This document shows positions 14,031 through 41,321 of a stretch of DNA of 64,000 nt, one piece after another (position 1 is the stretch's first letter; each line of letters starts with the position of its first letter). Both the position numbers and the translations under genes were made by a program. A model generated the notes under the pieces. The model made no database searches, was not told the DNA's origin, and was given only the letters and a program-made list of their open reading frames with translations. Source of the DNA: Phycisphaeraceae bacterium (GTDB taxonomy: Bacteria; Planctomycetota; Phycisphaerae; Phycisphaerales; SM1A02); NCBI GenBank assembly GCA_004213555.1, contig SHAP01000001.1, positions 248,001 through 312,000 of the forward strand, read 5' to 3'.

Positions 14031-14375
14031 ATGCCCAATTTCCAGTCCGAACGTGAATTCAGCGAAGACAGCATCAACATCTTGGATGACCGACGTCGTG
14101 AAATCCGCTTCAACGATGGTGAACGTGCGGTCATCGTCTGGTCTCACAATGCCGAAGCTCGGGGCCCAATGGAACTCATCAACCGTTCTCAACAGGGGCT
14201 CTGCGTACGGAGTGAAGACGCGGTTCCCCCTGGAGCTTTGGGAACCATATTGCGCATCCTGCCATGGTCTGAAGCAGAAAACCGGCGCGCGGTCGTCACA
14301 TGGTGCCACGCCGATGATTCAGGTGGGTGGCAACTGGGACTGCGGTTCGTGGACAGTCGACCCATCGCTGCCTAA
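14031..14375 (+). CDS. PilZ-domain protein
   Basis: A 114-residue protein that is almost only a PilZ domain, the common receptor of cyclic di-GMP. The two binding motifs are visible: an Arg-rich DDRRREIRF (R-x-x-x-R type) and NRSQQGL (N-x-S-x-x-G). The beta-barrel core ends in WQLGLRFV. I chose the ATG at 14031 because the frame upstream shows no homology. The last 57 bases overlap the convergent UnbV gene. An HD-GYP phosphodiesterase-type protein at 50474-51235 shows that this strain probably uses c-di-GMP, but no cyclase is in the window. The output partner is unknown. Confidence 0.8.
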   Translation: MPNFQSEREFSEDSINILDDRRREIRFNDGERAVIVWSHNAEARGPMELINRSQQGLCVRSEDAVPPGALGTILRILPWSEAENRRAVVTWCHADDSGGWQLGLRFVDSRPIAA

Positions 14376-16232
14376 AACCTCCTCCGGCCTCACGATCAGC
14401 GTCCCTGCACCTTCAAATGTGAAGGGTGTGGTCTTGCCACCAATCCATGACACCGTGCCGGTCCCGGTCGCGGAAGTATGTTCTAAACCGAACCAGGCTT
14501 CGGCGGGCACTTGGGTCAAATAACTTCGAGTCGGAGAAATCCGACGGCGACGGGTGACTCCATCAACCGTCAAGGTGACCTCGGCCCCGATGGCCATTCC
14601 TGGCAGTTTGCCAACATCAGGCAGCACCCTCAAACTCGCCGTCGAAGCAACATCATTTCGATAAATCACCGCGGGAGCTCCGGCCTGGGCAACGGCCAAA
14701 TCCAAATCACCGTCCCCATCAAAGTCTGCGAAGCCCGCCCCGCGACCCACCAGCGGATTGGCCAAATCACCGACACTGTTATTGGGGGCAAGCGCAAGGC
14801 AGCGCTTGGCATCGTGACCACAATTCCAGAACAGTTGCGCAGGTTGGCGGTACGACTGCGAAGCTTGAACTTCCGCGATCTCTTCTTCGAGATGGCCATT
14901 GATCTGCAGCAAATCCTCGCGGCCGTCCATATCAACATCGAAAAAGAACAAACCAAACGAGAGGCGTTGCCGACTCGGCGTGCCCAATCCTTCAGCCCCC
15001 GACATGTCCGTGAACCGGAGCGGGTGTTCGGGGTCCTCGGCCGCGTAAAGGCTGCTGGCCTCGTTGGCAAAATTGGCCACCGCGATGGCCAACCGGGCAT
15101 CACCGCGAGGCTCGGAGACATCGATGCCCATCGCTCCAGTGGCCGCGCCCAGACGGTCAAATGCCACGCCGGAGGAAGCTCCAATCTCAACGAAATCCCC
15201 ATGTTGATTGTGGAACATGAAGTTTTGCACGGTGTCATTGGCCACCATGACATCCAGCCAGCCGTCGCGGTCAAAATCACAAATCGTCAAGGCCAGAGCC
15301 TTGCCCAGTGGCAGTCCGGTTGCGGGGTTCACCACTTCAATCCCCCGTTCCGCCGAGACATCACGGAAGGCACCAGTGCCATCATTTTCGAACAAACGGC
15401 AGTGGGCACCTTGGTAGTTGGTTGGGGGGCCGTATGCACGGTCGGTGCCGTTCAACGTGAAGGCCAACTCCAAGTCGATGGTTCGGCTCCATTGAACATA
15501 CCGACACACAAAAAGATCCAAATCTCCATCACGGTCGTAGTCAAAAAAGCCAGAGGACGAACTCCATGCTTCATCCGGACCGCCCGCCCCCCCAGCGTTG
15601 GGAACTTCTGAAAAAATTCCTCCATCATTCAGCAGCAAACGATCACGACCCAGACAACCCAAAAAGACATCAAGATCGCCGTCACCATCGACATCCCCAA
15701 TGGCCGGCCCCATGGCGTATGCATCTTGAGGAAATCCAGATCCCAGAGTGACATCAACAAACTGCCCCGCGTCGTTGCGGTACAGACCAAGAGATCGGTC
15801 TTCGCCGATTGAATTGTCCCAAGGCCAAGAACGACCACCGGTCAGCAGCAAATCAGGATCTTGATCGCCATCCATATCAAACCACGCCACACCACCCACC
15901 ATGGTCTCGGGCAGAAGCTTCTCTCCGGTCGCGCCGGAGTCATGGATGAATGACACTCCAGTCTGTTTGGTGATGTCTACAAATGGAAGTGGAGGCTGTT
16001 GCTCGGCGACGGTCACCAAGCGTCCGGGCCCCACAATCGGATCTCGATCGATGATCTCTTCGGCTTCATTTTCTTCATCAGACAGCAGGGTTGCCACCGC
16101 AAACACAATCGCTCCGAGCAGCATCAGGCCCAGCAGACTCCAACGAAACGCTTGGGCAATGACCGTGCCATCGGTTGAAATCACTTCCTCTTCAACGGCA
16201 TCGGGTTCTTGAGATTCTGGAGGGACGCTCAT
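14319..16232 (-). CDS. membrane-anchored CRTAC1-like protein (FG-GAP repeats plus ASPIC/UnbV)
   Basis: A 637-residue envelope protein. Residues 31-50 form a single membrane anchor after a short acidic cytoplasmic stretch. The large outside part has several FG-GAP/VCBS calcium loops (for example DMDGDQDPDLLL, DVDGDGDLDVFL, DYDRDGDLDLFV), which build a beta-propeller, and ends in an ASPIC/UnbV domain at about 545-620 (GMAIGAEVTL, then RSYLTQ). It is the last gene of a four-gene operon; its start overlaps the stop of the pentahaem cytochrome by four bases (ATGA). Function of this family is not settled; binding or surface structure is more likely than catalysis. The end overlaps the PilZ gene. 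Confidence 0.83.
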   Translation of the reverse strand: MSVPPESQEPDAVEEEVISTDGTVIAQAFRWSLLGLMLLGAIVFAVATLLSDEENEAEEIIDRDPIVGPGRLVTVAEQQPPLPFVDITKQTGVSFIHDSGATGEKLLPETMVGGVAWFDMDGDQDPDLLLTGGRSWPWDNSIGEDRSLGLYRNDAGQFVDVTLGSGFPQDAYAMGPAIGDVDGDGDLDVFLGCLGRDRLLLNDGGIFSEVPNAGGAGGPDEAWSSSSGFFDYDRDGDLDLFVCRYVQWSRTIDLELAFTLNGTDRAYGPPTNYQGAHCRLFENDGTGAFRDVSAERGIEVVNPATGLPLGKALALTICDFDRDGWLDVMVANDTVQNFMFHNQHGDFVEIGASSGVAFDRLGAATGAMGIDVSEPRGDARLAIAVANFANEASSLYAAEDPEHPLRFTDMSGAEGLGTPSRQRLSFGLFFFDVDMDGREDLLQINGHLEEEIAEVQASQSYRQPAQLFWNCGHDAKRCLALAPNNSVGDLANPLVGRGAGFADFDGDGDLDLAVAQAGAPAVIYRNDVASTASLRVLPDVGKLPGMAIGAEVTLTVDGVTRRRRISPTRSYLTQVPAEAWFGLEHTSATGTGTVSWIGGKTTPFTFEGAGTLIVRPEEVLGSDGSTVHEPQSQLPPT

Positions 16233-19018
16233 GGTCGTTCAGCATCGGCGCGGAGCATGTCTGGGCTTGAAGCCTCAGGCAACTCATAAATCGTTACCGG
16301 CTCTGCAGCTCGGTTGGCTGCAGGATATTTCCGGCGGGCCAATGCAACAGCTCGATCGCGGGCGTTGTCGTCGGGTTTGTACTTCGCGTGCAACGCAGCA
16401 TGACGGGACTCGGCCTCATCATCACCCAAACCCCGGGCAACCTGCTTCAACCCCCAGTGGGCACCCAAACTTTCAGTATCAAGCGCCAAAGCCGCCAAGA
16501 AAGACTCGCGGGCGTCTTTGAGGAGCACGGCGCGTTCTTCGCCACGCTCCTGAAGAGCCAGTTGATAGATCGCATCTCCAAGGGCGATGTGCACCCGCTC
16601 ATCTCGAGTGAAATCAAACCCTCGACCCTCGGCTTGGGTAAACCCACCCCGCAGGATGTCTCGCAGGTTGTTGGCCGCAAGTTCAAAGTCCCCGTTCCGC
16701 GAGGCAACTTGCGCCCCAAACCAGAGCAGACTCCAAGCCGGCGCCTCCCGGTCCGCGGCCCGAGCCAACGCATCCGGAGCTTCAACATCAATGAGTCCTT
16801 CTCGCAAGAACAATCGGGCCAGATTCAGAGGACCGTCGTATCGGCCCAAGAGATCAACTTGCTCAAAGGCGGAACGGGCCTGCTTCAAAAGACCGCTGCC
16901 TTGCACACGCAGAAGTCCGATGCCGTAGTCGTTCCAGCGTTGCCACGCTGGAGCCTCAAAATCAGGCTGGCTGACTGCTTCGGATCCGGCCAAAGGAAGA
17001 ACCAGCCGGTCGCTGGCCAATTCCAAAATCGGGAGATCATTTTGGTAGTTGGGATCTTCCGTCACGAACCGCATGTAGGTGGTGTCAAACTTCCGGTAGC
17101 GAAGACGGGCCTCCACCACGATGGGGCCCACTGCGTCCTCAGGGACGGTGAAGCGGTGGTGAATGCTGTCGGCCGCCCCCGGAGGAATTTGGTGGTTGTA
17201 CAGCGGGATGTAAATGTCTTCGGCGTTTCTTCGGTCGATGCGGTTGCCATTGCGGTCAATGACGAACGCATTCACAAAGTGGGCCCACGGATCCACGGCG
17301 CCGAAATCGTCCATGCCTCCGCTTTTCCAGAGTTCCCGCTCCCCATCAAACACCGTGACCTCCAGCCACACCTCATTGGAGTCGCTGGTGCCTTGCGTAA
17401 AAACGTGCCCCATCTTCACCGTGCGAATCACGGTTTCAAGGAGCCAGGTAGAACCTGGTTCAATCTGGGGAACTTCGGGTCGAAGCGGGGCGATCAACTT
17501 TCCATCAATTCGCCCTTCTTCGCGGAGTCCGAAAAGGTCCACCCGCATCACACCCTCGTTGAATTCTCGGTGGGCTTCAATCGCTGCATCAGCATCAGGC
17601 ATTTTGTCCCGATTGAGATGCAAGATGCCCGTGTTGGCGCCCAGAAACTGGTGGTTGTGCACCAAGGATCGACCATCCCCAGCAAAATCCTCGGCGCCAA
17701 AATTCACGCCCGGACCGGCTTCCTCCAAAGGCATATGGCAGCCATTGCAATTTGTTTGGGCTTTTGCGGGGTAATAAAAGCTGGTGATGCCGTGGCCCGA
17801 CACCCCAGAGAGGCGAAAGGCGTCGTAGTGGTTTTGGCCTCGAAGCCATTTGTACCCATTCAGTTCTACTGGCAGATGGACCTTGTGGCACGTGCCACAA
17901 AACTCCGCCGATTGGTGAAATGGCTTCAGGAACGTTGCTTTGTGGAAAGCCGGCTTGGCCTTGACCAACTGGCGGTTGACCCATTGCAAAGCCGCATTTT
18001 CACTGAACGCGAAGGGGTAATGCTGCGGCTCATCCATGGTGTAGGCCGCATTGCCCAAGTTGGAGTTCACATGGCTGATCGCATGGCACACGGTGCAGGT
18101 GATGGCCGCTTGGCCCAAGGGATCTTCAGAAACCGCATAATCCGGGTCATCCCATCTCGGGTCATCAAAAGCTCCCGATAGAAATGGAACGGGATCGTGA
18201 CAGCCCGCACAAAAACGGCTGGCTTGGGTGTTGCCATCGCGAGCGGACAGGAACGCTCGGGTTTCCTGCAATGACTTGGCGTACGGTCCATTGTTGAAGC
18301 TGCTGAATCGGTGGGCCGAGTGCGACCACGACTGGTACGCGTCTTCGTGGCACTGCAAACAGTACTCGTCGTTGTCCAGCACTTCAGCGTCGATAAAGTC
18401 TCCCGAAGTGGTGCGGGCGAGCGAGGGCTCAAAATAATCCGCGCTCTCGGGCCCTTCGCGTCCCCAAGAGCGGGGATCTTGTGCCTGGACCATGAACATC
18501 AATGCCGCGAAGCCAGCCGCCACGCCGGCCCACTTGGCTCCAATTTTCCATTTGATGCGTCGTCCCGCAAGTCGGTGCAAGACAAACATCCAAGAGGCCA
18601 TCAGGGGGGCCGCCACGTGGGCCCAATACGCCGCCGAACGCCAAGCGTCGTTGGTGAGATCCAACCGAAACCCGCCCAAGTCGACGCGGGTCAATGCGAT
18701 ACCAGAAATGAAGGTCAAAATTGCGGCCAAGAAGGTCGCCCAACCCGCTCGAACCGCCTGACGATTGGGTCGGTTGTAGGTGTTTCGCAAGTGCACCAAA
18801 CCGAACACAATCGTGGGCACCACGATCAGGAGCCCCAAGATCAGGTGCAGCAGGAACATCCAAAGGTAGAACCAGCCTTGTCGCTCTTCGCCCTGGACGG
18901 TGACCGACACCAAATACACCGAATTGACGACGATCAACGCAAACAGCGCAAACACGATGGCCAGAACCGTCTTCAGACGTTTTCCGATCGCAGGTCGGAA
19001 TTTTTTAGGCTTGGCCAT
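16229..19018 (-). CDS. membrane pentahaem c-type cytochrome with TPR tail
   Basis: A 929-residue electron-transfer protein. About five hydrophobic segments occupy residues 15-180. In two of them pairs of His (58 and 76; 134 and 148) are spaced as in cytochromes that hold b haems. The periplasmic part has five CxxCH haem c sites: 220-224 CLQCH, 270-274 CAGCH, 308-312 CTVCH, 374-378 CGTCH and 424-428 CNGCH. A beta-rich domain (about 480-660) and a helical TPR-like domain (about 690-890) follow. It could take electrons from the quinone pool to the periplasm or the reverse. It is joined by ATGA to the UnbV gene downstream and lies 56 bases after the UnbV lipoprotein gene. Substrate unknown. Confidence 0.87.
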   Translation of the reverse strand: MAKPKKFRPAIGKRLKTVLAIVFALFALIVVNSVYLVSVTVQGEERQGWFYLWMFLLHLILGLLIVVPTIVFGLVHLRNTYNRPNRQAVRAGWATFLAAILTFISGIALTRVDLGGFRLDLTNDAWRSAAYWAHVAAPLMASWMFVLHRLAGRRIKWKIGAKWAGVAAGFAALMFMVQAQDPRSWGREGPESADYFEPSLARTTSGDFIDAEVLDNDEYCLQCHEDAYQSWSHSAHRFSSFNNGPYAKSLQETRAFLSARDGNTQASRFCAGCHDPVPFLSGAFDDPRWDDPDYAVSEDPLGQAAITCTVCHAISHVNSNLGNAAYTMDEPQHYPFAFSENAALQWVNRQLVKAKPAFHKATFLKPFHQSAEFCGTCHKVHLPVELNGYKWLRGQNHYDAFRLSGVSGHGITSFYYPAKAQTNCNGCHMPLEEAGPGVNFGAEDFAGDGRSLVHNHQFLGANTGILHLNRDKMPDADAAIEAHREFNEGVMRVDLFGLREEGRIDGKLIAPLRPEVPQIEPGSTWLLETVIRTVKMGHVFTQGTSDSNEVWLEVTVFDGERELWKSGGMDDFGAVDPWAHFVNAFVIDRNGNRIDRRNAEDIYIPLYNHQIPPGAADSIHHRFTVPEDAVGPIVVEARLRYRKFDTTYMRFVTEDPNYQNDLPILELASDRLVLPLAGSEAVSQPDFEAPAWQRWNDYGIGLLRVQGSGLLKQARSAFEQVDLLGRYDGPLNLARLFLREGLIDVEAPDALARAADREAPAWSLLWFGAQVASRNGDFELAANNLRDILRGGFTQAEGRGFDFTRDERVHIALGDAIYQLALQERGEERAVLLKDARESFLAALALDTESLGAHWGLKQVARGLGDDEAESRHAALHAKYKPDDNARDRAVALARRKYPAANRAAEPVTIYELPEASSPDMLRADAERP

Positions 19019-19074
19019 GGATCTATATTAGATCGGGTCTCCGACGGGACAACTCCAACCTCGAGGGCCAGAAA

Positions 19075-22000
19075 TTACTCGCCGCCCTGCCAACGGGTCC
19101 GGCGACCAATCTCGAGAGAACGCCCCAATTCGTCCATTTTCCGTGGTGGTCCTGGCAAAAGTTGCTCCCCATCCTTGGTGAAGAGATCCATATCTTTGCA
19201 CCAACCACGGGTCCTCAACACGACCCGCTGACGCTCTCCATCCAGGCGAACAGGCATTTCATCAAACTCAAAGGCAATCTCTTCCCCCGAACCAAACACC
19301 GCGGCCGCATTGTCTTTGGTTTCAACGAGATCAAGAACATCACCAAAAGCGGTGTACCAACCAGGCAGCGTTCGCATGTCGGCAAAGGGCATCACATCTG
19401 CATCGTCATACTCGGGTCGCCGACCCTCGTGCACGGTGCGTCGGGCAAACCCACGGGCGGACAACTGGGCCGAGCGAAGAGCGAGTACCTGCCGAGTCGC
19501 TTTCGGGCACGACTCCACTTCGACCAGGCGAACTTGATCCACATGAATTTCAAGATTGGTTCGCAAACGAATGGCCGTGCTCCCCTGGGGCAACGGGGGC
19601 AATGGCATGGCCATGGTTCGTGGCATGCCCGCCGGGTAGCCAAAATCTTCCAACACCACTTGCCAATCACCTGCGAGAGTGCGGGCCTCCAGAGTGAGGC
19701 TTTCCCACGAAGCACCAGACTGCCAAGACGCAAACATGGTCTGGGAATACGGGTATTCCACCCAACCATCGACCACGAGAGCAGCGGGGAAGTCAAGCGA
19801 ATGGCCGAACTCACACTCCAAAACACACTCCGAAGCCAAGCGACCTAAAAATTTCGGATCAAGCGGTCCGGGGTCCACCGCCACAAAGTCCGAAGCGGAA
19901 ATGGACTCGGTGCACGTTTGTCCGTTGACACGTGCTTCCACTGGATGGTGGGTCGTCCGGAAGAAGATGGGCTGGCCAGTTGGAGCAGGTCCATTGATGC
20001 CGAGACGTTCGTCCAGGACCAAATCCCATGGCTCGGGCATGGACCACACTTCCACGCTCGCCGCGTCAAGCCAACAAGATTCCTCCATGGGCTCTGCGAG
20101 CTTCAGTCGCACTGGCTCTCCAGTGGGCGGATTCCAAGGCAACAAGAAACCCTCATCGGGACGCGGTGTGGCGGTGATATTTGGCGCGAGAAGGTAGCCC
20201 ACGCCGCCAACCCCAAGAACATCACTTACGAATTCGTACGAAGTCCCGTTGTGCACGAAGACCACCGGGCACGAACTCATTTGGCGCTGGGTCTCCGCAA
20301 TCCTGTGGATTCCGGCGGCAAGCTGGGGCTCGGTTTGAAAGACCCCGTCGGACCAATCAATCGCCACAAAATCAACCGACTCGGCACCGGCCAAACCAAT
20401 AGAAAGCGGCTCCAGACCCGCCCCCGGAAATGAACTGGCGGGGGGATATTCCAAGACCGACCAGCGACCTCGCTGGCGAACCCGAAGACGGGTTCCGAGA
20501 CCCTCGGCGTTCGATCGCATCGAATCGCCGGTGTCGATTTCACCGGTCAACTCCACTGAGGCAAAAGGGAAACGTCCCTCGCCTGGGGCCCAGAAATGAG
20601 GACCATTGGACTGCACCGTCAAAAGCCCCGGTCCGGCTTCGGGCTCCAACGTCACGGGGCGAACCCCCGACGCGTTGGCGTTGAATTGTTCCAGCAGGCC
20701 GCCCACTCCGGCGGATTCGTCCATGGAAAAGACGAAAGCGGAACCCTCTCCGGAACAGAACAATTCCAACCGACCATCGCCGGAAAAGTCGGCGAGCATC
20801 ATCGAACGTGTGCCTTTGAGTTCGGTGCGATTCTTTCGAACCATCGACAGATCTTTCATGACTTCAAAATGATCCAAAGCCGTCGAGCGCAGGACGTACA
20901 AATCAACCACACCATCGGCGTTCGGGTCCCCCCCCACCACCGCTTGGGCCGGCTCGTCGTCAATCTGCAGCGATTCCCATTGCCAAATGCGATCGTTTCG
21001 AATCACCCACAATCCTTGCTGCCCCACGACCACCAAGTCGCGGTCTCGATCTTGATCCAAGTCCATCGGCAACACCGAGGCTGCGTCAGAGGACAACGCT
21101 TCCAGACCCTCCATTTGACGTCGCCATGAACCATCACCATTGGCGGTGAAAAGGCCCGACTCCGTCAAGAGATCGAGATCTCCGTCGTGGTCAACGTCGG
21201 TCGCGCGGATGGTCCGGGCAGGATCTGCTTCGGCCAAAGCCTCATCAAGCACCGGGACATATCCCTGTGCGGTGGGTTGCCAAAGTTGAATGCCGGGCGC
21301 AGATTGTGAGACGAAGGCCACTTCGCGACCTCCCGAGTGGTCAAGGTCGGCCACCACCGCTGCGTGCCCTTGCACTTGGGCCAGTGGATGGTCGGGGAGA
21401 TAACGAAAGCCGGTTCCTGAACCGTCACCCTGCAAAAACACATGGGAGGTGCCGCTCTGAAGAGCATTGCACAACAACATGTCCATTTGCCCATCCCCAT
21501 CGAAATCTGCGGGCACGATGGCCGAAGGCGCGGACCATTCCTTCACACCCTCGATCCCTTCGATGTTCAACGGTTGCGAAAGTGCAAACAATCCGCCGGC
21601 CGGCTTTGGTTTGGGTTCGGTGGCTGGCTGCAAAGAAACCACTTCGCCGAGTGGGCCCAAGCGGGTGTACTTCCACTCCACGGTGCGGGCCTGAGGGTGA
21701 TCCTGCAAAGCCGTGAAGAGTTCAAAATCTTCCTCCGCACCTTCGACATCGTTCAAGCGGCGCCGCACTTGGGATCTTCGGTAAACCGCCGATCGCAAAA
21801 GTGGGTCCAGTTCCAACACCAAGGTGTACCCAGCCGCAGCTGCCTCCGGTTGCTCTGGCTCGATGGCCTGGGCCAAGAAATACTGCACGAATGGGTCATC
21901 GGGGACGTCTTCGGCCAAACCGGAGAAGACTTCCCGGCATTCTTCCTCTTCCCCCGCCCGGACCAAGAGCAACCCCAACCCGTATCGGGCCCGTTGGTGG

Positions 22001-22305
22001 GAAGGGTCGTCGGCCAGCACCGATCGAAAAATCTCGATGGCCCCCGCTTCGTCACCTTCACGCTGACGGTTGAGTTGGGCAAACGCAAAATTGGTTCGCA
22101 CATCCAAGAGCCGAGGATGGTCTTCCAACAACGACGCGAATGCTTGAAAGGCGCCGTCGTAGTCGTATCGCCCCATCAGCATGACGCCTTCGTCATTTCG
22201 ACGAGCGATTTCGGGATCATTGGACTGGAACACCGGGGCACGTTCGCCACAGCCGGTCAAGGCCACAACCACGAGCACGAACAGGAGCAGGGGAAAGAAA
22301 CGCAT
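19075..22305 (-). CDS. TPR/FG-GAP/UnbV lipoprotein
   Basis: A 1076-residue exported lipoprotein. Residues 1-18 are a lipoprotein signal with the lipobox ALTGC, giving Cys19 as the lipid site. Tetratricopeptide-like helices fill about 30-210, FG-GAP loops (such as DFDGDGQMDMLL and DVDHDGDLDLLT) fill about 260-540, and an ASPIC/UnbV-like stretch lies near 590-660. The last 400 residues are a beta-rich region with several Cys and no family I recognise. It is the second gene of the operon, 5 bases after the nitrilase gene and 56 before the cytochrome. A scaffold or substrate-binding role in a redox complex is inferred only from the neighbours. Confidence 0.82.
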   Translation of the reverse strand: MRFFPLLLFVLVVVALTGCGERAPVFQSNDPEIARRNDEGVMLMGRYDYDGAFQAFASLLEDHPRLLDVRTNFAFAQLNRQREGDEAGAIEIFRSVLADDPSHQRARYGLGLLLVRAGEEEECREVFSGLAEDVPDDPFVQYFLAQAIEPEQPEAAAAGYTLVLELDPLLRSAVYRRSQVRRRLNDVEGAEEDFELFTALQDHPQARTVEWKYTRLGPLGEVVSLQPATEPKPKPAGGLFALSQPLNIEGIEGVKEWSAPSAIVPADFDGDGQMDMLLCNALQSGTSHVFLQGDGSGTGFRYLPDHPLAQVQGHAAVVADLDHSGGREVAFVSQSAPGIQLWQPTAQGYVPVLDEALAEADPARTIRATDVDHDGDLDLLTESGLFTANGDGSWRRQMEGLEALSSDAASVLPMDLDQDRDRDLVVVGQQGLWVIRNDRIWQWESLQIDDEPAQAVVGGDPNADGVVDLYVLRSTALDHFEVMKDLSMVRKNRTELKGTRSMMLADFSGDGRLELFCSGEGSAFVFSMDESAGVGGLLEQFNANASGVRPVTLEPEAGPGLLTVQSNGPHFWAPGEGRFPFASVELTGEIDTGDSMRSNAEGLGTRLRVRQRGRWSVLEYPPASSFPGAGLEPLSIGLAGAESVDFVAIDWSDGVFQTEPQLAAGIHRIAETQRQMSSCPVVFVHNGTSYEFVSDVLGVGGVGYLLAPNITATPRPDEGFLLPWNPPTGEPVRLKLAEPMEESCWLDAASVEVWSMPEPWDLVLDERLGINGPAPTGQPIFFRTTHHPVEARVNGQTCTESISASDFVAVDPGPLDPKFLGRLASECVLECEFGHSLDFPAALVVDGWVEYPYSQTMFASWQSGASWESLTLEARTLAGDWQVVLEDFGYPAGMPRTMAMPLPPLPQGSTAIRLRTNLEIHVDQVRLVEVESCPKATRQVLALRSAQLSARGFARRTVHEGRRPEYDDADVMPFADMRTLPGWYTAFGDVLDLVETKDNAAAVFGSGEEIAFEFDEMPVRLDGERQRVVLRTRGWCKDMDLFTKDGEQLLPGPPRKMDELGRSLEIGRRTRWQGGE

Positions 22306-22310
22306 GGGGA

Positions 22311-23303
22311 TTACTGTTGATCGGGCAATTGACCCTTCGCTCGAGAAAGACGGGCTTCCAACGATTCAGAGGTAATGGGATGCTCTGTGGCGGGCGACAA
22401 GCCTGGTCCTGGTGGAAGACCGTGCATGCTTCGGCGGAGATGGGATCGCATGTCGTGCCCTCGACGACGAGATCTGGCATCGCGAACCGCCGATACGTCG
22501 ACCGGACCGACCACAATCTTTTCTCCCTCGCCGGGGTCCGCTTGGCTCATGATGCGACCGTCGTGATCCACAATCATTGAACCACCTGGCCAAGAGAAAG
22601 GCGGGTACCCCGCCAAGGAAGCACCTTGGTTGCAGGCCACCACGCAGGCCGTATTTTCTGCCGCCCGAGCGCGGTTGAAGAGCGTCCACCAATCCATTGG
22701 AGGCGTTGCACCCCAAGGATCCATGTACGCGCTCACCCGCACCAGCACTTCAGCTCCTTTGAAAGCCAGCTCTCGCAGGGTCTCGGGAAACAGCCAGTCG
22801 TAACAGATGGCGGCCCCCAGTCGACCGATCTCGGTTTCCACCACCGGAAAAGGGTCGTCCGGGTAATCGGCAATGTCATGGGGAGAAGCATGCACTTCCC
22901 AAGGCACCCAAGGATTGACCTTTCGATACTTCGCCAACAACCCGGTGGGGCCAACCAGACATGTCGTGTTGAACACCGCGTCTGGAAAGTTTGAATCACG
23001 TTCCAAGAACGTTCCGGTCCACACAAAGCACCCCAACTCCTGACAAGCCTTGATGTACGGCGTCAACGAGTCACCCGGAAGCTCCACCGCCAATTGTTCC
23101 CGGAGGTCGGCCAAAGACATCGTGGGAGCGGCGTGGGCAAACTCGGGAAACACCAAAAGACGCACATCAAAAAAGGGCTCGTACCCGCCCACCGCGTGGT
23201 GCATCATCTGGACCATGTGGTCGATGCGAGCGGGGATTTCCGAACGCTTTTTGGGGCACGGAAACGCCGTTTGACAGCAGGCTGCGTGGTAGCGGAGCGA
23301 CAT
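22311..23303 (-). CDS. carbon-nitrogen hydrolase (nitrilase superfamily)
   Basis: A 330-residue cytosolic amidase or nitrilase. The catalytic triad is complete: Glu54 in FPEFAH, Lys128 in YRKVNP and Cys167 in AAICYDWLFPE. It splits a C-N bond of an amide or nitrile through a Cys thioester; the true substrate cannot be read from sequence, and an aliphatic amide or formamide is only one option. The C-terminal 50 residues are basic and unconserved. It is the first gene of the operon that continues with the UnbV lipoprotein (5-base gap) and the cytochrome, an unexpected partner that hints at a shared physiological role. Confidence 0.87.
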   Translation of the reverse strand: MSLRYHAACCQTAFPCPKKRSEIPARIDHMVQMMHHAVGGYEPFFDVRLLVFPEFAHAAPTMSLADLREQLAVELPGDSLTPYIKACQELGCFVWTGTFLERDSNFPDAVFNTTCLVGPTGLLAKYRKVNPWVPWEVHASPHDIADYPDDPFPVVETEIGRLGAAICYDWLFPETLRELAFKGAEVLVRVSAYMDPWGATPPMDWWTLFNRARAAENTACVVACNQGASLAGYPPFSWPGGSMIVDHDGRIMSQADPGEGEKIVVGPVDVSAVRDARSRRRGHDMRSHLRRSMHGLPPGPGLSPATEHPITSESLEARLSRAKGQLPDQQ

Positions 23304-23359
23304 GAATCAAAAGGATAGATCCCCAAGCACCAGCCCGTCGAAAGTGGACAAAACGAGCA

Positions 23360-23384
23360 CCGGGCCGACCAAAGGTCGACCCGG
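23360..23384 (-). terminator. probable intrinsic terminator after the FG-GAP protein gene
   Basis: An 11-base stem (23360-23370 with 23374-23384, one G-U type mismatch) around the loop AAA lies 30 bases past the stop of the minus-strand gene. A short U tract follows a few bases later, so termination strength is uncertain. Confidence 0.5.
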
Positions 23385-23413
23385 CACGTGCGAAGTTTGT
23401 GGAATCACTCAGA

Positions 23414-25816
23414 TCAGCAAGGGCCGAAGGATGAAAGCAACTGGACGAGATCGCTGAATCCGGTTGTGCCGTCGCCATCAATGTCTGCATCGACGCCGCC
23501 CCAGGCGGAAAGCACTTCGAGGATGTCGCCAAAATCGGTGATGCCATCGCTGTTCACATCCGTTGGACAAACATTGCCACAGATGACTTCTTCAACACTG
23601 AAGTCATCGATTCCAGCTTCCGTGATGGAGTTGTTGGGCGCGTCTGCGGATTGGAAGGCCACGATGACCTCGGCCGACGGTTCAACCCAATCACCCACGC
23701 GGAACGAAACGGTTTCCCACGCCGAGTTGGTACCCGTCGTGGCCAAAGTGGTCACTTCGGTGAAAGTGGCACCGTTGTCACTGGAGACCAAGGTCCGAAG
23801 GAAATCTTCTTCCACGGTGCCTTCATCTGAGCAGTAGAACCATCGAGCAAAGGACACGGTGCCATCGGATCCTTCGAGGTCCAGGGCCGAGGAATACAAC
23901 GTCACCGGACCACCGTCAAGGTCGGCCGAGCCGGCCGTTCCGCCAGCGTCACCGTTCTGGGTCATCCAGCAGTTGACGTTTTCTGCGCCGGCCGAAGCAT
24001 CGTCTTCGGGATTCGCAATCGCGCCACCCGACAAGGTTCCGTTGGGGTCGGCCAGCTCCCAGAATCCCGCCGTGGTGCCAGCATCTGCAATGGCAGTCCA
24101 GCCATCCTCGCCTTGTTCCATGGAATTGAGATAGGACGTCTCCACCCCTTCGGCAGCCAGCAGATCAAACTCGACCGCAGGGGCCGCCGGCGGATCGCGA
24201 TACACCGCACCGCTGGTCAAGCTGGCTTGCACGTAGAACGAGACCGGGGTCGGACAGTCCACGGCGGGCAGCGTGCCTGCAAACGAAAGGCCCCCGGTGC
24301 TGGTGAGCGCTTGCTCCACCGCTGGGGCACCATCCACCGAAACAAACATCTTGACGCTGGATGGATCAATGATCGAACCGCCGATCTCGGTCAACTGAAC
24401 CGAAAGGTCACTCTCTGATCCCGCGGGCAAGAATTGCGGAACGCCACCGGGGTAGCCGAAGCTCACGCCGACTGGTGGCTGGTTCACCCAAATCTCGGTG
24501 CCGTCGCAACGGCCAGAAACAATGTCAAGCCAGCCATCGCCATTGAGGTCAAAGACCGCCATGTCGTGCACGCCAAACAAGTTGGCCTGAGGAATAGGGA
24601 AGCCCTGCTCCTGGAACGACACATTGGGTGTGTTGCCCAAGTTTCGGTAGATCAAGGTTCGCCGGTCGCATCCCGCAATGTCCACATCAACATCGGTGAT
24701 GATCACATCCGGGAAGCCGTCGTTGTTGAGGTCATCGGTCCAAGAGTTGCCGCCGAATCCGGCCGAATTCTGGAAGTTGAAAGACGTAAAGGTTGCTTGA
24801 CCTTGGCCGTCGTTCCCTTGGTTCAGAAGATAGGTGTCCACGTTGTCATCGACCACCACCATGTCAAGACGGCCGTCGCCATTCAGGTCGTCCACCGAGA
24901 CAAAGTACGGGGCAGCTTGGTTGACGATGTCGTAGCGATTGAAGACGCCTTCGTTGGACGGGTTGTTGTACGTGACCGCCACGTGCTGCGGGGCATTCAA
25001 CGAGGTTTGCTTGACCACGTCCATGACCCCATCACCATTCATGTCGGCGATGGCACTCGCGGCACCAAAGGCCGAAAGGCTCATCTCGCCAGTCAGGCGG
25101 CTGTTGGTTTCGTCGGTAAAAAATCCAGACCCATTGTTGATCAACAACCGGTTGTTGTAGTCAAAGATTTGGGACCCACCGGAGTCGTAATCACCGAAGT
25201 ACAAGTCCAGATCACCATCGCCGTCGACGTCACCCGCAGCAACCGAGCAAAATCGAGGACCGGCCGTGGGGTGCATTTCAGGGATTCGGGCATCTTCGAA
25301 CCGGAAGCCTTGCCACACCCCGCCGGACTCACCCAAGTTGATGTAGATCCGAGGGTGCGAAAGATGCTTCTGGCTGTTGTCGGTCAGGGTTGGCGCGGTG
25401 GCCATGTCCAACCAGCCATCTCCGTTGAGGTCGGCCAAGACCACATCCCGGTCGTTGGTCGGGGTCAAGAAGCCTTGGTCTCCCGAGACATCTGAAGCCA
25501 CGGCGTAGTCGGCGGTGCGATCCATCAAGACGCCATTGATGGCATGCCCCTCCGCAACGCCTTCATTCATGAACAAAATGTTGGTGTCGCGTCCCGCGCT
25601 GGTGAACGGCTGCTTGCGAACACACACCAGATCGATGTCACCATCGAGATCCACATCACCCCAGGCGTAGTCTTTTTCTTGGGTGTCGTTCACGGTGATG
25701 GAGGGATCGTTTCCAGCAACGCGCATGCGGACCGTGGTTTCATCGGAAAAGTTGACCCAATTTTGCGCCAGAGCGCTGGCGGTCAAAGCTGGAATGGTGA
25801 GCAAGATACGCGTCAT
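23414..25816 (-). CDS. secreted FG-GAP/VCBS repeat protein with dockerin-like tail
   Basis: An 800-residue exported protein. Residues 1-17 form a signal peptide (TIPALTASALA). Many FG-GAP loops with D-x-D-G-D patterns (DVDLDGDIDLVC, DLNGDGWLDMAT, DVDGDGDLDLYF) span about 50-440 and would fold into a Ca-binding beta-propeller. A beta-sandwich stretch follows (about 590-740), similar in style to the region before the tail of the subtilase at 4 kb. The end has two dockerin-like loops (DVNSDGITDFGDI and DIDGDGTTGFSDL). No catalytic motif was seen. It lies 37 bases after the DUF1111 gene, so the two are probably co-transcribed. Surface adhesion or polymer binding is a guess. Confidence 0.82.
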   Translation of the reverse strand: MTRILLTIPALTASALAQNWVNFSDETTVRMRVAGNDPSITVNDTQEKDYAWGDVDLDGDIDLVCVRKQPFTSAGRDTNILFMNEGVAEGHAINGVLMDRTADYAVASDVSGDQGFLTPTNDRDVVLADLNGDGWLDMATAPTLTDNSQKHLSHPRIYINLGESGGVWQGFRFEDARIPEMHPTAGPRFCSVAAGDVDGDGDLDLYFGDYDSGGSQIFDYNNRLLINNGSGFFTDETNSRLTGEMSLSAFGAASAIADMNGDGVMDVVKQTSLNAPQHVAVTYNNPSNEGVFNRYDIVNQAAPYFVSVDDLNGDGRLDMVVVDDNVDTYLLNQGNDGQGQATFTSFNFQNSAGFGGNSWTDDLNNDGFPDVIITDVDVDIAGCDRRTLIYRNLGNTPNVSFQEQGFPIPQANLFGVHDMAVFDLNGDGWLDIVSGRCDGTEIWVNQPPVGVSFGYPGGVPQFLPAGSESDLSVQLTEIGGSIIDPSSVKMFVSVDGAPAVEQALTSTGGLSFAGTLPAVDCPTPVSFYVQASLTSGAVYRDPPAAPAVEFDLLAAEGVETSYLNSMEQGEDGWTAIADAGTTAGFWELADPNGTLSGGAIANPEDDASAGAENVNCWMTQNGDAGGTAGSADLDGGPVTLYSSALDLEGSDGTVSFARWFYCSDEGTVEEDFLRTLVSSDNGATFTEVTTLATTGTNSAWETVSFRVGDWVEPSAEVIVAFQSADAPNNSITEAGIDDFSVEEVICGNVCPTDVNSDGITDFGDILEVLSAWGGVDADIDGDGTTGFSDLVQLLSSFGPC

Positions 25817-25853
25817 GCAAATTCTCCTCTGGGAGTTTCGATCAGGGTGATGC

Positions 25854-27485
25854 TCAGCATCCTCCCCAAACAGACAAAATCAAGACCAAATCCGGGAAGC
25901 CGACGACACCATTGCCATCAAGGTCTTCCGGACACGCCGCGCAGGCCCCCCAAGCGGAGAGCACGCGGACCAAATCTGGGAAGGTGACCGCCCCGTCACC
26001 GTCAAAATCGCCGGGGCAAGCACTGCACGCATCAGGAACCCCGTCGCCATTCGCATCCGCCGCATTGCCGGACGCGATGGCCACGATGTCCAAGACGCCA
26101 TCGCCATCACAATCGGCGGTGTCGAATGGCGCCCCGAGGGCCCGAGCGAACCACGCGGCATCGGTGGCGTCGACATCACCATCTTGGTCGATGTCGGCGA
26201 CCGCACACGGCGAGTCGGCGTCGTATTGGTCGGTGCCGTCGCCATTGAAGCATGCCGTGACGGAGGGAAGATCAAAGAGGTCAACCGATTCGTCACCGTT
26301 CATGTCAAACTCGGCGCGTCCCAATGATCCCAAGAAGGCAATCACATCGGCTTTGTCTTGTGAAGGCAACGCGTCGTATGCCTGGGCCGAGGCCACCCCT
26401 TCGCTCAGAAGAGCATTGTGCTCCGCGATCGCATCGGTGATCAAATCGGTGAAGGTCCCCTCGGAAATGCGCCCGTCGTGCCACATGGGGCGTCGGGTGC
26501 GAAGGCCCCACAGAGGTGGCGTCCGCATCTCGTACTGTCCGGCCCCGGCTTGGGCAATGAAGTCCGAAGCCAAGCCCATGTTGTGCAGCAAGAAGTTGGA
26601 ATAGGGGCGAATGGTCTTGTTACGCAGGAAAGGCTCAAGGGATGGGTCGTTCGCGGTCGTAAACGATGGGTTGTGGCACTGCGCGCAGCCCACTTGGTTG
26701 AACAACTGCTCTCCCCGCATGCCCGAACGAGGCGTTTGCGGTGGTGCGGCAAGGAACCGTTGAAAATCAGACACGCGGTCGATGAAGTGGAAGCCTTCTG
26801 CGTCGGGGCCATCTTCCGGATCGGGAACGGTGTCACATTCTGCGATGGCTGGAGGCAAGATGCCGTTGGGATCGTTTTCGGTAGGAATCAACCGGTTGGT
26901 CAATCCCATTTCTTCACGGGCGGCGTCGCCGCTGAACGAAAGAATGGTGGCCAGTTGGCTTTTCCAGCCAAACCGGCCCACACGGGTGGTGGTGGGGTCT
27001 TCGAGCAGCGGGACAATGTTGGCCCGCCCACTGATACCAGGTCCACTGGATTCCAAAGCCAAGAGGTCGGCATCGGCAATGGCCTCCACCAGGCCATACC
27101 CCAACATGCCAATCGTGAGTCGGTCGGACACGATGTTGGCCATGGCTGGCAAATCTTCAGCGCACCCCGTGTCGATCCCGGAGACTTGAAGCAGGGAGCC
27201 GCCGAACTCCTCAAGTTCGACGAAGCCTTCTTCCTTGTCTTCCATTCCGAAGCGAATCACGGTTTGGCTGCCGTGCCCGCCGACAGGATTGTTGTGGCAG
27301 TTGGCGCAAGACTGTTTGTTGAAAATCGGCCCCAAACCATCCTCGGCAATCAACGACGTGTTATAGAGCTGGGCTCCTGCCTCAAAGCGGGCGCTGTAGG
27401 CGGCATCAAGACCAGAAATGGGGTCACCCATGCGGGCTTGAAGCTCCACTTGGCCGATGACCATTGCCAGTATGAATCCGCTCAT
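25854..27485 (-). CDS. DUF1111 dihaem oxidoreductase-like protein with dockerin-like tail
   Basis: A 543-residue exported protein of the DUF1111 (thiol-oxidoreductase-like, dihaem peroxidase-related) family. Two haem c sites are present: Cys60-His64 (CANCH) and Cys267-His271 (CAQCH). A short signal (SGFILAMVIGQVELQA) precedes. The C-terminal 150 residues carry four or more Ca loops (DMNGDESVDLFDL, DIDQDGDVDATDA, DFDGDGAVTFPDL, DLDGNGVVGFPDL), a dockerin-like region. The ATG at 27485 was chosen because it begins the signal; 20 more codons are open upstream. It is divergent from the TPR/CRTAC1 lipoprotein pair, with only 113 bases between. Fusion of haem and dockerin-like parts in one chain is unusual. 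Confidence 0.85.
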   Translation of the reverse strand: MSGFILAMVIGQVELQARMGDPISGLDAAYSARFEAGAQLYNTSLIAEDGLGPIFNKQSCANCHNNPVGGHGSQTVIRFGMEDKEEGFVELEEFGGSLLQVSGIDTGCAEDLPAMANIVSDRLTIGMLGYGLVEAIADADLLALESSGPGISGRANIVPLLEDPTTTRVGRFGWKSQLATILSFSGDAAREEMGLTNRLIPTENDPNGILPPAIAECDTVPDPEDGPDAEGFHFIDRVSDFQRFLAAPPQTPRSGMRGEQLFNQVGCAQCHNPSFTTANDPSLEPFLRNKTIRPYSNFLLHNMGLASDFIAQAGAGQYEMRTPPLWGLRTRRPMWHDGRISEGTFTDLITDAIAEHNALLSEGVASAQAYDALPSQDKADVIAFLGSLGRAEFDMNGDESVDLFDLPSVTACFNGDGTDQYDADSPCAVADIDQDGDVDATDAAWFARALGAPFDTADCDGDGVLDIVAIASGNAADANGDGVPDACSACPGDFDGDGAVTFPDLVRVLSAWGACAACPEDLDGNGVVGFPDLVLILSVWGGC

Positions 27486-27598
27486 CAGTGCAGTATGTCC
27501 TCCATCTTGTCTATAAGGTGGAAATCCCTGTTGGTTCCATCCCATTGAGACAGTTCATAGACGAATTTTTAGATTATCGCCCCACCCCAAAATGGGGA

Positions 27599-28381
27599 AT
27601 GCTGGCCCTTGGGGTGGTGGCGTTCGTTCTTGGATGCGACCAGAATCCTGATTCCACCACCAAGAACAGTGGTGAATCGTTCAATATTCCCCCCTCCAGC
27701 ACCACCACCGCCCTGCGAAGTGATCTGGGAGGGGTGCTGGACCTGCTCCGATCCGGCCCCACGGGGGCCGCTCGGATCCGTCTCAAGAAGCTTTTGGACC
27801 AAAATCCAACCGATGGGCAGGCCGCTTTTCTCTACGGCCTGAGCCTGCACCAAGAGAAGCGGTACAGCGAAGCTCGGGCCTATTTTGACCAAGCTTTGGA
27901 GCACGCCCCAGACTACGCCACCACCCACCATTTTTTGGGTTGGTGTTTGTTCTACGAAGGCGAGTTGGGATTGGCGAGGGCCAGCTTCTCACGCCACACC
28001 AAATTGGTGGAAGGGGAAGGAGACGATTACTTCGCGATGGGACTGATTGCCCTCGAGCAAAATCACTTGGCAGAAGCAGAAGACTCTTTCGAAATCGCAC
28101 TGCAGTGCTTTGAGGCCCTGCCGGCATTCAACGGCCGGGATCGTGAGCAAGGGAAGACCTTCGCCCGTTTGGGCGAGTTGGCCGACGTACTCGGCAATCT
28201 AGACCTGGCCGCCGAACGGCTGTCCAAGGCCACCGAACTGTTCCCCGACCATTACGAAGCCTGGCATCGCCTGGCCGCCATCGAACGACGCCGCGGGAAC
28301 CAAGACGCCGCGGCCCAAGCGGCGGAACAGGAAGCCGCGGCACGAAATCGAGTCGGACGCCCGCAAGGTTTTCCCGAATGA
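27599..28381 (+). CDS. TPR lipoprotein
   Basis: A 260-residue lipoprotein made mostly of tetratricopeptide repeats. From the ATG at 27599, preceded by GGGG a few bases upstream, residues 1-12 are a signal that ends in the lipobox FVLGC with a Cys lipid site. A low-complexity Ser/Thr-rich linker follows, then TPR helices from about 45 to 250 (for example AAFLYGLSLHQEKRYSEARA). The frame is open back to 27488 but that adds a polar stretch before the signal. It is joined by ATGA to the CRTAC1-like gene downstream, so the two products are made in step. It likely acts as a periplasmic scaffold. Confidence 0.8.
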   Translation: MLALGVVAFVLGCDQNPDSTTKNSGESFNIPPSSTTTALRSDLGGVLDLLRSGPTGAARIRLKKLLDQNPTDGQAAFLYGLSLHQEKRYSEARAYFDQALEHAPDYATTHHFLGWCLFYEGELGLARASFSRHTKLVEGEGDDYFAMGLIALEQNHLAEAEDSFEIALQCFEALPAFNGRDREQGKTFARLGELADVLGNLDLAAERLSKATELFPDHYEAWHRLAAIERRRGNQDAAAQAAEQEAAARNRVGRPQGFPE

Positions 28382-29961
28382 GATGGACCACGCTGTTGTT
28401 GTTGGTGCTCTCCGCGTGTGAGCAAAGCACCCCGCCGGTCGCAGTAGAACCTGAACCGAACATCGTCACGTGGACCCGTTCCGAGATCGCGCCCGCCAGC
28501 ATCACCACGTTGCCCACCGTCATTGCGGAAGTCAACGGAGGCGGATTGGCCGTCGAAGATGTCGACGGCGATGGCGATGAAGACCTGCTGGTGGCCACGC
28601 CGGGCACCATGAACACTTCGGGCACGCTTCGGCTGTACCGCAACCAAGGCCGCGGCCAGTTTCTCGCCGACCCTGCAATGGGTTTCGAAGGGGTCCAAGG
28701 TTGGCTGACGGGCTTGGCCACCGCCGACTTCGACCAAGACGGGCACCTTGATGTCGTGGTGGGCCGATTGGGCACCGACCTGTTCTTGCGTGGCACGCCT
28801 GAAGGCTTCAGCCCGCCCACCGAACTCCAGGGATTGGGATGGACCACCAGCATGGCCGCGGCCGACCTCGACGGCGATGGCGATTGCGATCTTCTTCGCG
28901 TGCGGTACCTCGAATTCGACCCCATCGCGCCCCCGCCTCCGGCGACCTACAAAGGCATCGAAGTGCTGGGCGGACCGCACGGGCTCACGGCCGAAGGCGA
29001 CGACATCTTGTGGAACGAACCCGCAGGTTTTCGCAGCGAGCCGTTGTCGGGATCACCTTCTTATGGTTTGAACGCGCAAGTGCTCGACCTCAACGGCGAC
29101 GGGCAACTGGATGTGTTGGTGGGCAACGACTCGCAAGGCAACCACGCCTACCTTCGTCAAGACGACGGCTGGGTCGAACGCGGGGCCGCGATTGGCTTGG
29201 CGGGCAACGGCGATGGTATGGGCCAAGCCACCATGGGCATGGCGGCCTCCGATTTCAATGGCGACGGGCAGCCCGATCTCTTCAGCACCAACTTCTCCGC
29301 CGACACCAACACCTTTCTGGAAAGTGTCGGAGATGGTTTCTTTGCCGACCGCACCGCCGTGCGTGGTCTGGGCGTCAACAGCCGGCCGCTGCTTGGTTGG
29401 TCGGCGCAATTCGGCGATGTGGACCTCGACGGCGATGAAGATTTACTTTTCGTCAACGGTCACGTGTACCCACAAGCCACCCCAAACACCATGGGCAGCG
29501 CGTGGGCACAGCCCGCGGTGTTGATGCTCCGGTCGTTCAACCGGTTCGTGCGGGACGAAACCTTCCCCAGCCCCGACGAACAAGGCCGACTGGCCGTGCT
29601 GTTCGATGCCGACGGCGACCACGATCTTGATGTGGTCACCGTGACCCGAGACGGCGCCGTCAATCTGACCACCGCCGCAACCCTGTCCAAACGGGGACAG
29701 GGATGCACCATGCGTTTTCCCGACATCCTGCGGGGTCGGCGCGTGCAAATCACATCGGGAGAAACGACACAGGTGCGATGGATTCCCTCCGGCGGCGGCT
29801 TCCAGTCGTCCAGCCCCCCCGTGGTGCACGCCCGCGTGCCCAGTGGATCCGTTGTGGTGCAGGTTGATGGTCTGCCAGCGCAGACCTACGAGGTTGCCAG
29901 CGATCCACGCAGCCGTTCGGTGATCTGGGACACTTCGTCCACCACCAAATCAACGCCGTAG
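28378..29961 (+). CDS. CRTAC1-like FG-GAP/UnbV lipoprotein
   Basis: A 527-residue lipoprotein with the lipobox VLSAC (Cys14). FG-GAP loops recur through the chain (DVDGDGDEDLLV, DFDQDGHLDVVV, DLDGDGDCDLLR, DLNGDGQLDVLV, DFNGDGQPDLFS, DVDLDGDEDLLF). A shortened ASPIC/UnbV domain lies at about 465-515 (LRGRRVQITSG). It starts in the stop of the TPR lipoprotein gene. Together they repeat, as two chains, the TPR plus FG-GAP plus UnbV content of the single lipoprotein at 19075-22305. The last 76 bases overlap the convergent phosphatase gene, so one of the two C-termini may be shorter in relatives. Confidence 0.84.
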   Translation: MRWTTLLLLVLSACEQSTPPVAVEPEPNIVTWTRSEIAPASITTLPTVIAEVNGGGLAVEDVDGDGDEDLLVATPGTMNTSGTLRLYRNQGRGQFLADPAMGFEGVQGWLTGLATADFDQDGHLDVVVGRLGTDLFLRGTPEGFSPPTELQGLGWTTSMAAADLDGDGDCDLLRVRYLEFDPIAPPPPATYKGIEVLGGPHGLTAEGDDILWNEPAGFRSEPLSGSPSYGLNAQVLDLNGDGQLDVLVGNDSQGNHAYLRQDDGWVERGAAIGLAGNGDGMGQATMGMAASDFNGDGQPDLFSTNFSADTNTFLESVGDGFFADRTAVRGLGVNSRPLLGWSAQFGDVDLDGDEDLLFVNGHVYPQATPNTMGSAWAQPAVLMLRSFNRFVRDETFPSPDEQGRLAVLFDADGDHDLDVVTVTRDGAVNLTTAATLSKRGQGCTMRFPDILRGRRVQITSGETTQVRWIPSGGGFQSSSPPVVHARVPSGSVVVQVDGLPAQTYEVASDPRSRSVIWDTSSTTKSTP

Positions 29962-35501: not shown

Positions 35502-35870
35502 AACGTCATTCTCCGAGTGCGGCGCGATCAAGGACGGATCCAGTCCCCCCGGGGGAATTAGATCCCCTCCCAGTTGGTCGCGTGCACCGCGGTGCGAACC
35601 TCAGGGAGGTCTCCCCCCTCCCGCCAAGGTCACAAGTGCGTTCATTTCAGCAGGTTCCACGCAATCTGCAACCCGGAGGTTTTTTGAAAGAGCCTCCAAA
35701 ATCCACACCCCATCCACAAAACCCCCGCCACAAGGCACAAACGGGGAAAGTTCGATGAGCGGGGTGGGCCCTCTCCCGAATGCATCCACGCCGCACCCAC
35801 ACCGCCACCCCCTTTTTGCACAGGGCGAACTTCGCGGCAACGCCAATATCAACCGCGCTAGCATCGAGCC
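35502..35870. promoter_or_regulatory. 369-base divergent intergenic region with three GC palindromes
   Basis: This is the only gap over 300 bases. It separates the Cys-rich protein (minus) from photolyase (plus) and must hold both promoters. Three short perfect palindromes sit on the side of the minus-strand gene: 35546-35555, 35584-35595 and 35604-35615. They could be operators or leader hairpins. No convincing -10/-35 pair was found. An 87-codon minus-strand frame at 35601-35864 has no support in composition or ribosome site. Confidence 0.35.
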
Positions 35871-41291: not shown

Positions 41292-41321
41292 TGTCAATCC
41301 TGTGGTGTGTTCAAACAAAAA

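Follow-up and report, generated by a model that had tools for sequence, protein, structure and literature searches.

A conserved nitrilase, UnbV and pentahaem cytochrome gene unit in a Phycisphaeraceae bacterium and its relatives

The window analysed here is a stretch of 64,000 nucleotides from a Phycisphaeraceae bacterium (assembly GCA_004213555.1, contig SHAP01000001.1, positions 248,001 to 312,000). Within it, four minus-strand genes (23303-14319) encode in order a C-N hydrolase of the nitrilase superfamily, a lipoprotein with tetratricopeptide repeat (TPR), FG-GAP and UnbV parts, a pentahaem cytochrome of the membrane and a CRTAC1/UnbV protein with a membrane anchor. The unit is real and conserved, it is probably undescribed, and its mechanism can be inferred in part. 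Our preferred reading, held at about even confidence, is a conserved electron-transfer module of the cell envelope to which a cytosolic amidase is attached. Features of the unit and its surroundings are listed in Table 1.

A preliminary description of the window had proposed these genes as one operon. On re-reading, its coordinates, strand and junctions were found as given: a gap of 5 bases between nitrilase and lipoprotein genes, a gap of 56 bases between lipoprotein and cytochrome genes, and an ATGA overlap between cytochrome and UnbV genes. The domain content was likewise recovered (C-N hydrolase, FG-GAP and UnbV in two proteins, five haem c sites), the UnbV match of the lipoprotein being weak. 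Overlooked had been the five N-terminal transmembrane helices of the cytochrome with their four histidines, its C-terminal TPR, a divergent TPR/UnbV pair (27488-29961) and a terminator-like hairpin (23387-23357).

Neighbourhood analysis, the check that had been suggested, supports one conserved unit, since order, overlapping junctions and co-occurrence are kept. Of 61 relatives, 40 have the cytochrome (E up to 0.001) and 26 the nitrilase; most of the window's family has long cytochrome copies (41-96% identity). With strong cytochrome matches counted, 25 relatives have both genes, six the cytochrome only, one the nitrilase only (an incomplete genome) and 29 neither. The nitrilase gene precedes the cytochrome gene by 3.3-4.3 kb, on the same contig and strand, in 17 genomes of the window's family, representing 16 genera; in the loci fetched, this interval is occupied by the TPR/UnbV gene. 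A chance neighbourhood is ruled out by the same layout in these 17 genomes, by co-occurrence and by recurrent junction overlaps across phyla.

Two findings had been named that would speak against a unit: a nitrilase gene apart from the other three in close relatives, and a strong terminator or promoter between the genes. The former is seen in a minority: in G004 the nitrilase is alone, while in G015, G025 and G030 it is accompanied only by the TPR/UnbV gene, these two sharing one contig and the cytochrome and UnbV genes another. As to the latter, the hairpin falls after the FG-GAP gene that precedes the nitrilase gene, setting the unit apart from this gene and from the di-haem oxidoreductase (DHOR) gene farther upstream; the junctions inside the unit contain no comparable terminator, and no promoter over threshold in a scan restricted to the sigma-70 type. 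The 56-base gap 5′ of the cytochrome gene may still hold a weaker internal promoter. The same gap contains an inverted repeat, GATCTA-ATA-TAGATC, whose congener copy has the same arms with the loop GGA instead of ATA; the repeat may be an operator or may be due to chance.

The association extends beyond the family. In a phylum sample of 391 genomes, with thresholds of E up to 1e-100 for the cytochrome and up to 1e-80 for the nitrilase, 87 genomes have the cytochrome, 49 the nitrilase and 38 both (Fisher p 4e-19); the cytochrome thus occurs in 38 of the 49 nitrilase genomes and in 49 of the 342 others, counts that are uncorrected for relatedness. Nitrilase is found in 13 of the 14 cytochrome-bearing genomes of family f25, and the nitrilases of families f59 and f18 are mostly without cytochrome at the threshold used. 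Among 20 nitrilase loci picked because the cytochrome is elsewhere or missing, the nitrilase gene adjoins a TPR/UnbV gene in nine, from eight families.

Eighty named loci come from records titled Planctomycetota, Gammaproteobacteria, Acidobacteriota and Verrucomicrobiota, and in nearly all that are long enough to show it an UnbV gene follows the cytochrome gene. Titles of metagenome-bin records may be wrong; one titled Acidobacteria (L032) groups within Phycisphaerae in the cytochrome tree. The nitrilase is carried by seven of the 10 gammaproteobacterial genomes tested (59-65% identity), and its gene is beside a TPR/UnbV gene in G428, G435, L075 and L088, on opposite strands in the last two. 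In G428 and G444 the contig ends, if joined across a break as we infer, would give nitrilase, TPR/UnbV, cytochrome and UnbV in that order. An acidobacterial record (L036, L182) shows several UnbV genes in a row ahead of the cytochrome gene, with a nitrilase gene ∼12 kb away on the opposite strand.

Junctions are conserved together with gene order. In 13 of 16 loci the first 4 bases of the TPR/UnbV gene are also the last 4 of the nitrilase gene. The UnbV gene likewise begins inside the end of the cytochrome gene in 18 of 20 loci, gammaproteobacterial and acidobacterial ones among them, with an overlap of exactly 4 bases in 11; overlaps were measured from the first possible start codon, so the longer ones may be overstated. 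By this pattern, the unit therefore consists of two overlapping pairs, nitrilase with TPR/UnbV and cytochrome with UnbV, joined in the window by the 56-base gap. Both pairs also occur apart, and both reach Gammaproteobacteria. A tree of 49 cytochromes (short search, no bootstrap) places Gammaproteobacteria, Acidobacteriota and Phycisphaerae in one group (SH-aLRT 100), separate from sequences of Pirellulales and Gemmatales type, and requires at least six changes in the presence of an adjacent nitrilase. The tree points to transfer between phyla and to a nitrilase that was gained or lost beside the cytochrome more than once.

The cytochrome has five CxxCH motifs (C220-H224, C270-H274, C308-H312, C374-H378 and C424-H428) and scores 27.9 bits against the c554-family profile PF13435 (cut-off 20.8), which places it in that family. 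Across 99 distinct cytochromes all five CxxCH histidines are invariant, as are H236, H359, H456 and H538; H397 (97 of 99) and H368 (95 of 99) are nearly so. Equally invariant in all 99 are H58, H76, H134 and H148 in transmembrane helices 2 and 4, the pattern of a di-haem b protein. In the predicted model (m6f4f6d596f02; pLDDT 83, pTM 0.80) these residues lie on helices 49-80 (H58, H76) and 124-150 (H134, H148). The N terminus would be inside, with H58/H134 toward the outer and H76/H148 toward the inner side of the membrane; the c haem domain is predicted to be periplasmic because of the loop charges. By pattern, the protein would be a transmembrane di-haem b protein fused to a multihaem c domain, with haem binding and reaction with quinone both presumed, and is likely an electron conduit between the quinone pool and the periplasm.

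Quinol-linked membrane electron carriers include NrfH/NapC, the cytochrome b561 type and the NarI-type di-haem b proteins. The resemblance of the cytochrome to these would be one of working, a transmembrane haem b pattern beside periplasmic c haems, no sequence relation having been found for the membrane domain. With cytochrome c554 (PF13435; 1bvb) it shares the CxxCH pattern of the first haems, although the sequence match to 1bvb reaches only E 0.08, and it differs in having five haems, a five-helix transmembrane domain with four histidines, a beta domain and a TPR tail.

We considered the cytochrome as the main quinol-cytochrome c oxidoreductase and rejected this. The genome's only NrfD-type match is on another contig, 5 kb from a cytochrome oxidase gene, which is the layout to be expected of alternative complex III, and the unit is not counted as such a complex; a genome search with the cytochrome b profile PF13631 gave no match. 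Since a cytochrome oxidase gene with a nearby NrfD-type gene is present elsewhere in the genome, the module would be an additional branch, not the main chain.

The product of gene 4 matches PF13517 (FG-GAP) at 92 bits and PF07593 (UnbV) at 35.5 bits, and a profile of its relatives matches the CRTAC1 structure 9etn at 1.4e-29. By these matches it is a relative of CRTAC1 (cartilage acidic protein 1, of the ASPIC/UnbV family), with the same FG-GAP propeller followed by an UnbV domain. Unlike CRTAC1 (9etn), the gene 4 protein is bacterial and membrane anchored, and its gene overlaps that of a multihaem cytochrome. For the lipoprotein encoded by gene 2 the UnbV match is 20.8 bits by hmmscan and 26.1 bits in the genome search, against a Pfam cut-off of 23.4. 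Its C-terminal ∼400 residues are conserved (54% mean column identity); in 12 members they gave no Pfam match (one stray hit at E 0.16), and they have no significant sequence match in the PDB. Motifs of this domain (19075-20316, minus strand) are SSCPVxFxWDG, LAEPMEE, EYPYSQTMFAAWQAG and GWCKDMD. A structure search with the lipoprotein model returned only TPR and generic propeller matches; the top one, aldos-2-ulose dehydratase, has an rmsd of 22 and means little.

The nitrilase matches PF00795 at 119 bits (cut-off 23.2), which assigns it to the nitrilase superfamily. The catalytic Glu-Lys-Glu-Cys residues E54, K128, E136 and C167 are invariant in 57 of 57 relatives, and the closest solved structures are formamidase (2dyu) and aliphatic amidase (2uxy). 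Judged by its residues and nearest solved relatives, the enzyme is catalytically intact and an amidase rather than a nitrile hydrolase. It shares fold family and tetrad with AmiF and AmiE, its best solved relatives, and differs from them in another invariant stretch, SAYMDPWG..PMDWW. It is neither a formamidase (AmiF) proper, scoring 114.7 bits against the NF009803 equivalog cut-off of 406, nor an aliphatic amidase (AmiE) proper, with 77 bits against 427 for NF009802. Lipoprotein N-acyltransferase, a membrane C-N hydrolase, was also rejected: the protein is without transmembrane segments and its nearest relatives are amidases.

In the preferred reading, the cytochrome would sit in the inner membrane, where two putative b haems, presumably paired at H58/H134 and H76/H148, would span the membrane and link the quinone pool, the presumed partner, to five periplasmic c haems. 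The CRTAC1/UnbV protein would be the periplasmic partner of the cytochrome, as the pairing of their genes across phyla suggests. The TPR/UnbV lipoprotein, whose gene in other loci overlaps the nitrilase gene and which is encoded 5′ of the cytochrome, would tie the cytochrome/UnbV pair to the nitrilase. The most likely role of the TPR parts and calcium-binding propellers is to keep the envelope complex assembled and to bind its substrate. Our guess for the nitrilase is that its most likely role is cytosolic hydrolysis of an amide which the envelope complex yields, as product or by-product. In this small genome of 2.0 Mb (91% complete), the sole c554-type protein and all three UnbV proteins detected lie in this neighbourhood, and the module is read as dedicated on this ground. 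An exported redox system that an amide or nitrile might feed or clear had been proposed earlier; any part of an amide in it would be a guess. Envelope redox activity is suggested by the anatomy (the di-haem b pattern and five haem c sites); ‘exported’ holds only in part, as the cytochrome is predicted to span the inner membrane.

Several observations weigh against this reading. PDB sequence comparison found no solved protein like the cytochrome's transmembrane domain, and Foldseek and VIA with the cytochrome model matched TPR proteins only, at the TPR part. Whole families keep the cytochrome without the nitrilase: in family f34 the cytochrome is present in 28 of the sampled genomes and the nitrilase in none. 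In four family f25 loci the nitrilase is without an UnbV neighbour. (The genes beside it in those loci, named by eye, are DNA polymerase IV-like and ABC-transporter-like.) The cytochrome therefore does not require the nitrilase, an accessory part that may serve a task of its own. Alternatively, the unit may be two independent modules that are only neighbours, a respiratory cytochrome-UnbV pair and a nitrilase-TPR/UnbV pair of amide metabolism, which shared regulation would have brought side by side in the family of the window. This is a serious possibility that we nevertheless think less probable than not: the pairs are split in G015, G025, G030 and several families, and f34 keeps the cytochrome pair only, yet the TPR/UnbV gene is directly 5′ of the cytochrome gene also without an adjacent nitrilase (L062, L073, L085), and all four stand together in the window's family, in L039 and L074 and, probably, across contig breaks in the gammaproteobacterial G428.

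Hydrazine synthase-like clusters offer a parallel of another kind. In other bacteria, CRTAC1 genes are reported to separate hydrazine synthase-like alpha from beta-gamma genes, and the beta-gamma proteins of clade I carry c554 domains (PMC12758564), so that there too haem proteins, with c554 domains in one clade, are encoded beside a CRTAC1-family gene. The unit adds a nitrilase and a TPR/UnbV protein, and PDB sequence matches of the cytochrome, UnbV and DHOR proteins included no hydrazine synthase or alpha or beta-gamma homologue, the subunit profiles themselves not having been run directly. We regard the clusters as a parallel and the unit as probably no member of them. That the unit is a substrate-specific periplasmic oxidoreductase complex for a nitrogen compound, built like those clusters, with the amidase completing or protecting the reaction, seems improbable to us. 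An amidase gene does stand here beside that of a pentahaem c554-type protein; however, the four invariant and two nearly invariant spare histidines could six-coordinate all five c haems, which would leave no catalytic haem. Still less credit is given to an extracellular electron transfer or metal-handling conduit with the UnbV and TPR proteins as its outer part and an amidase that has nothing to do with it. Three of the four products are in the envelope and the cytochrome has a weak profile match to the ExtKL multihaem family (E 7e-4, far under the family cut-off), but the four-gene unit has no outer-membrane porin and the organism has a cytochrome oxidase gene. Open-access papers searched for UnbV with cytochrome, nitrilase or planctomycetes contained no description of the four-gene set.

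Table 1. Features of the four-gene unit and its surroundings, in window coordinates
Feature	Position	Strand	Basis
Cytosolic C-N hydrolase of 330 aa (nitrilase superfamily; closest to formamidase and aliphatic amidase)	22311..23303	-	PF00795 E 2.9e-34
TPR + FG-GAP + UnbV lipoprotein, 1076 aa, with C-terminal ∼400-residue domain without known family	19075..22305	-	Lipobox LTGC at C19; domain matches
Membrane cytochrome, 929 aa: five predicted transmembrane helices, pentahaem c domain (c554 type), beta domain, C-terminal TPR	16229..19018	-	Profile, sequence, model
CRTAC1-family (FG-GAP + UnbV) protein, transmembrane anchor, 637 aa	14319..16232	-	Pfam domains; 9etn profile match
Inverted repeat directly 5′ of cytochrome start codon, possible operator	19019..19034	-	Arms unchanged in one congener
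Terminator-like hairpin, 14 pairs (10 G-C), T-rich tail, 5′ of nitrilase gene	23357..23387	-	Stem and tail kept in two congeners, flanking bases differ
FG-GAP protein, 800 aa, upstream neighbour; kept beside cluster in several genera	23414..25816	-	Domain search, fetched loci
DHOR with dockerin and EF-hand, upstream neighbour	25854..27545	-	Domain search, fetched loci
TPR lipoprotein, divergent to cluster	27488..28381	+	TPR lipoprotein + UnbV pair recurs beside unit elsewhere
UnbV/FG-GAP protein with lipobox LSAC, third in the genome; its gene and the TPR gene overlap at ATGA	28378..29961	+	Profile and sequence

The upstream FG-GAP and DHOR genes are probably a unit of their own. The pair (23414-27545) is beside the cluster in L074/L137, L121 and L138, and in L122 and L123 it is so without an intervening nitrilase gene. 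A single operon with the four genes is thought unlikely given the intervening hairpin, though the genes are also neighbours in L074/L137, L121, L138 and L031/L143. A pair of TPR lipoprotein and UnbV genes, like the divergent one here, is also present beside the unit or the nitrilase gene in L034, L039, L075 and L085. Downstream of the cluster (9719-11713, minus strand) is the gene of a 4Fe-4S polyferredoxin with a C-terminal TPR, a distant relative of which adjoins TPR/UnbV and nitrilase genes in L154. Farther off, 39360-44432 (minus strand) encodes a DUF7133/HEAT/cytochrome c protein of 1036 aa, then a 652-aa protein without Pfam match, and 32733-35531 (minus strand) is a 932-aa reading frame with a TTG start and no Pfam match, which may or may not be a gene.

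UnbV/CRTAC1 proteins recur throughout the planctomycete loci read, and no bacterial task was found for them. The unit may be an undescribed respiratory or nitrogen-compound oxidoreductase, with a b/c cytochrome, a CRTAC1-type propeller as catalytic partner, an amide made or used and a dedicated amidase; we consider this unlikely, and if true it would be the first function for bacterial UnbV proteins. Because neither has a significant PDB sequence match, the cytochrome's membrane domain and the C-terminal 400 residues of the lipoprotein invite structure work. The pairing of UnbV with a cytochrome whose haem-ligand histidines are invariant across phyla, and of UnbV with an intact amidase, gives the UnbV family a testable physiological context.

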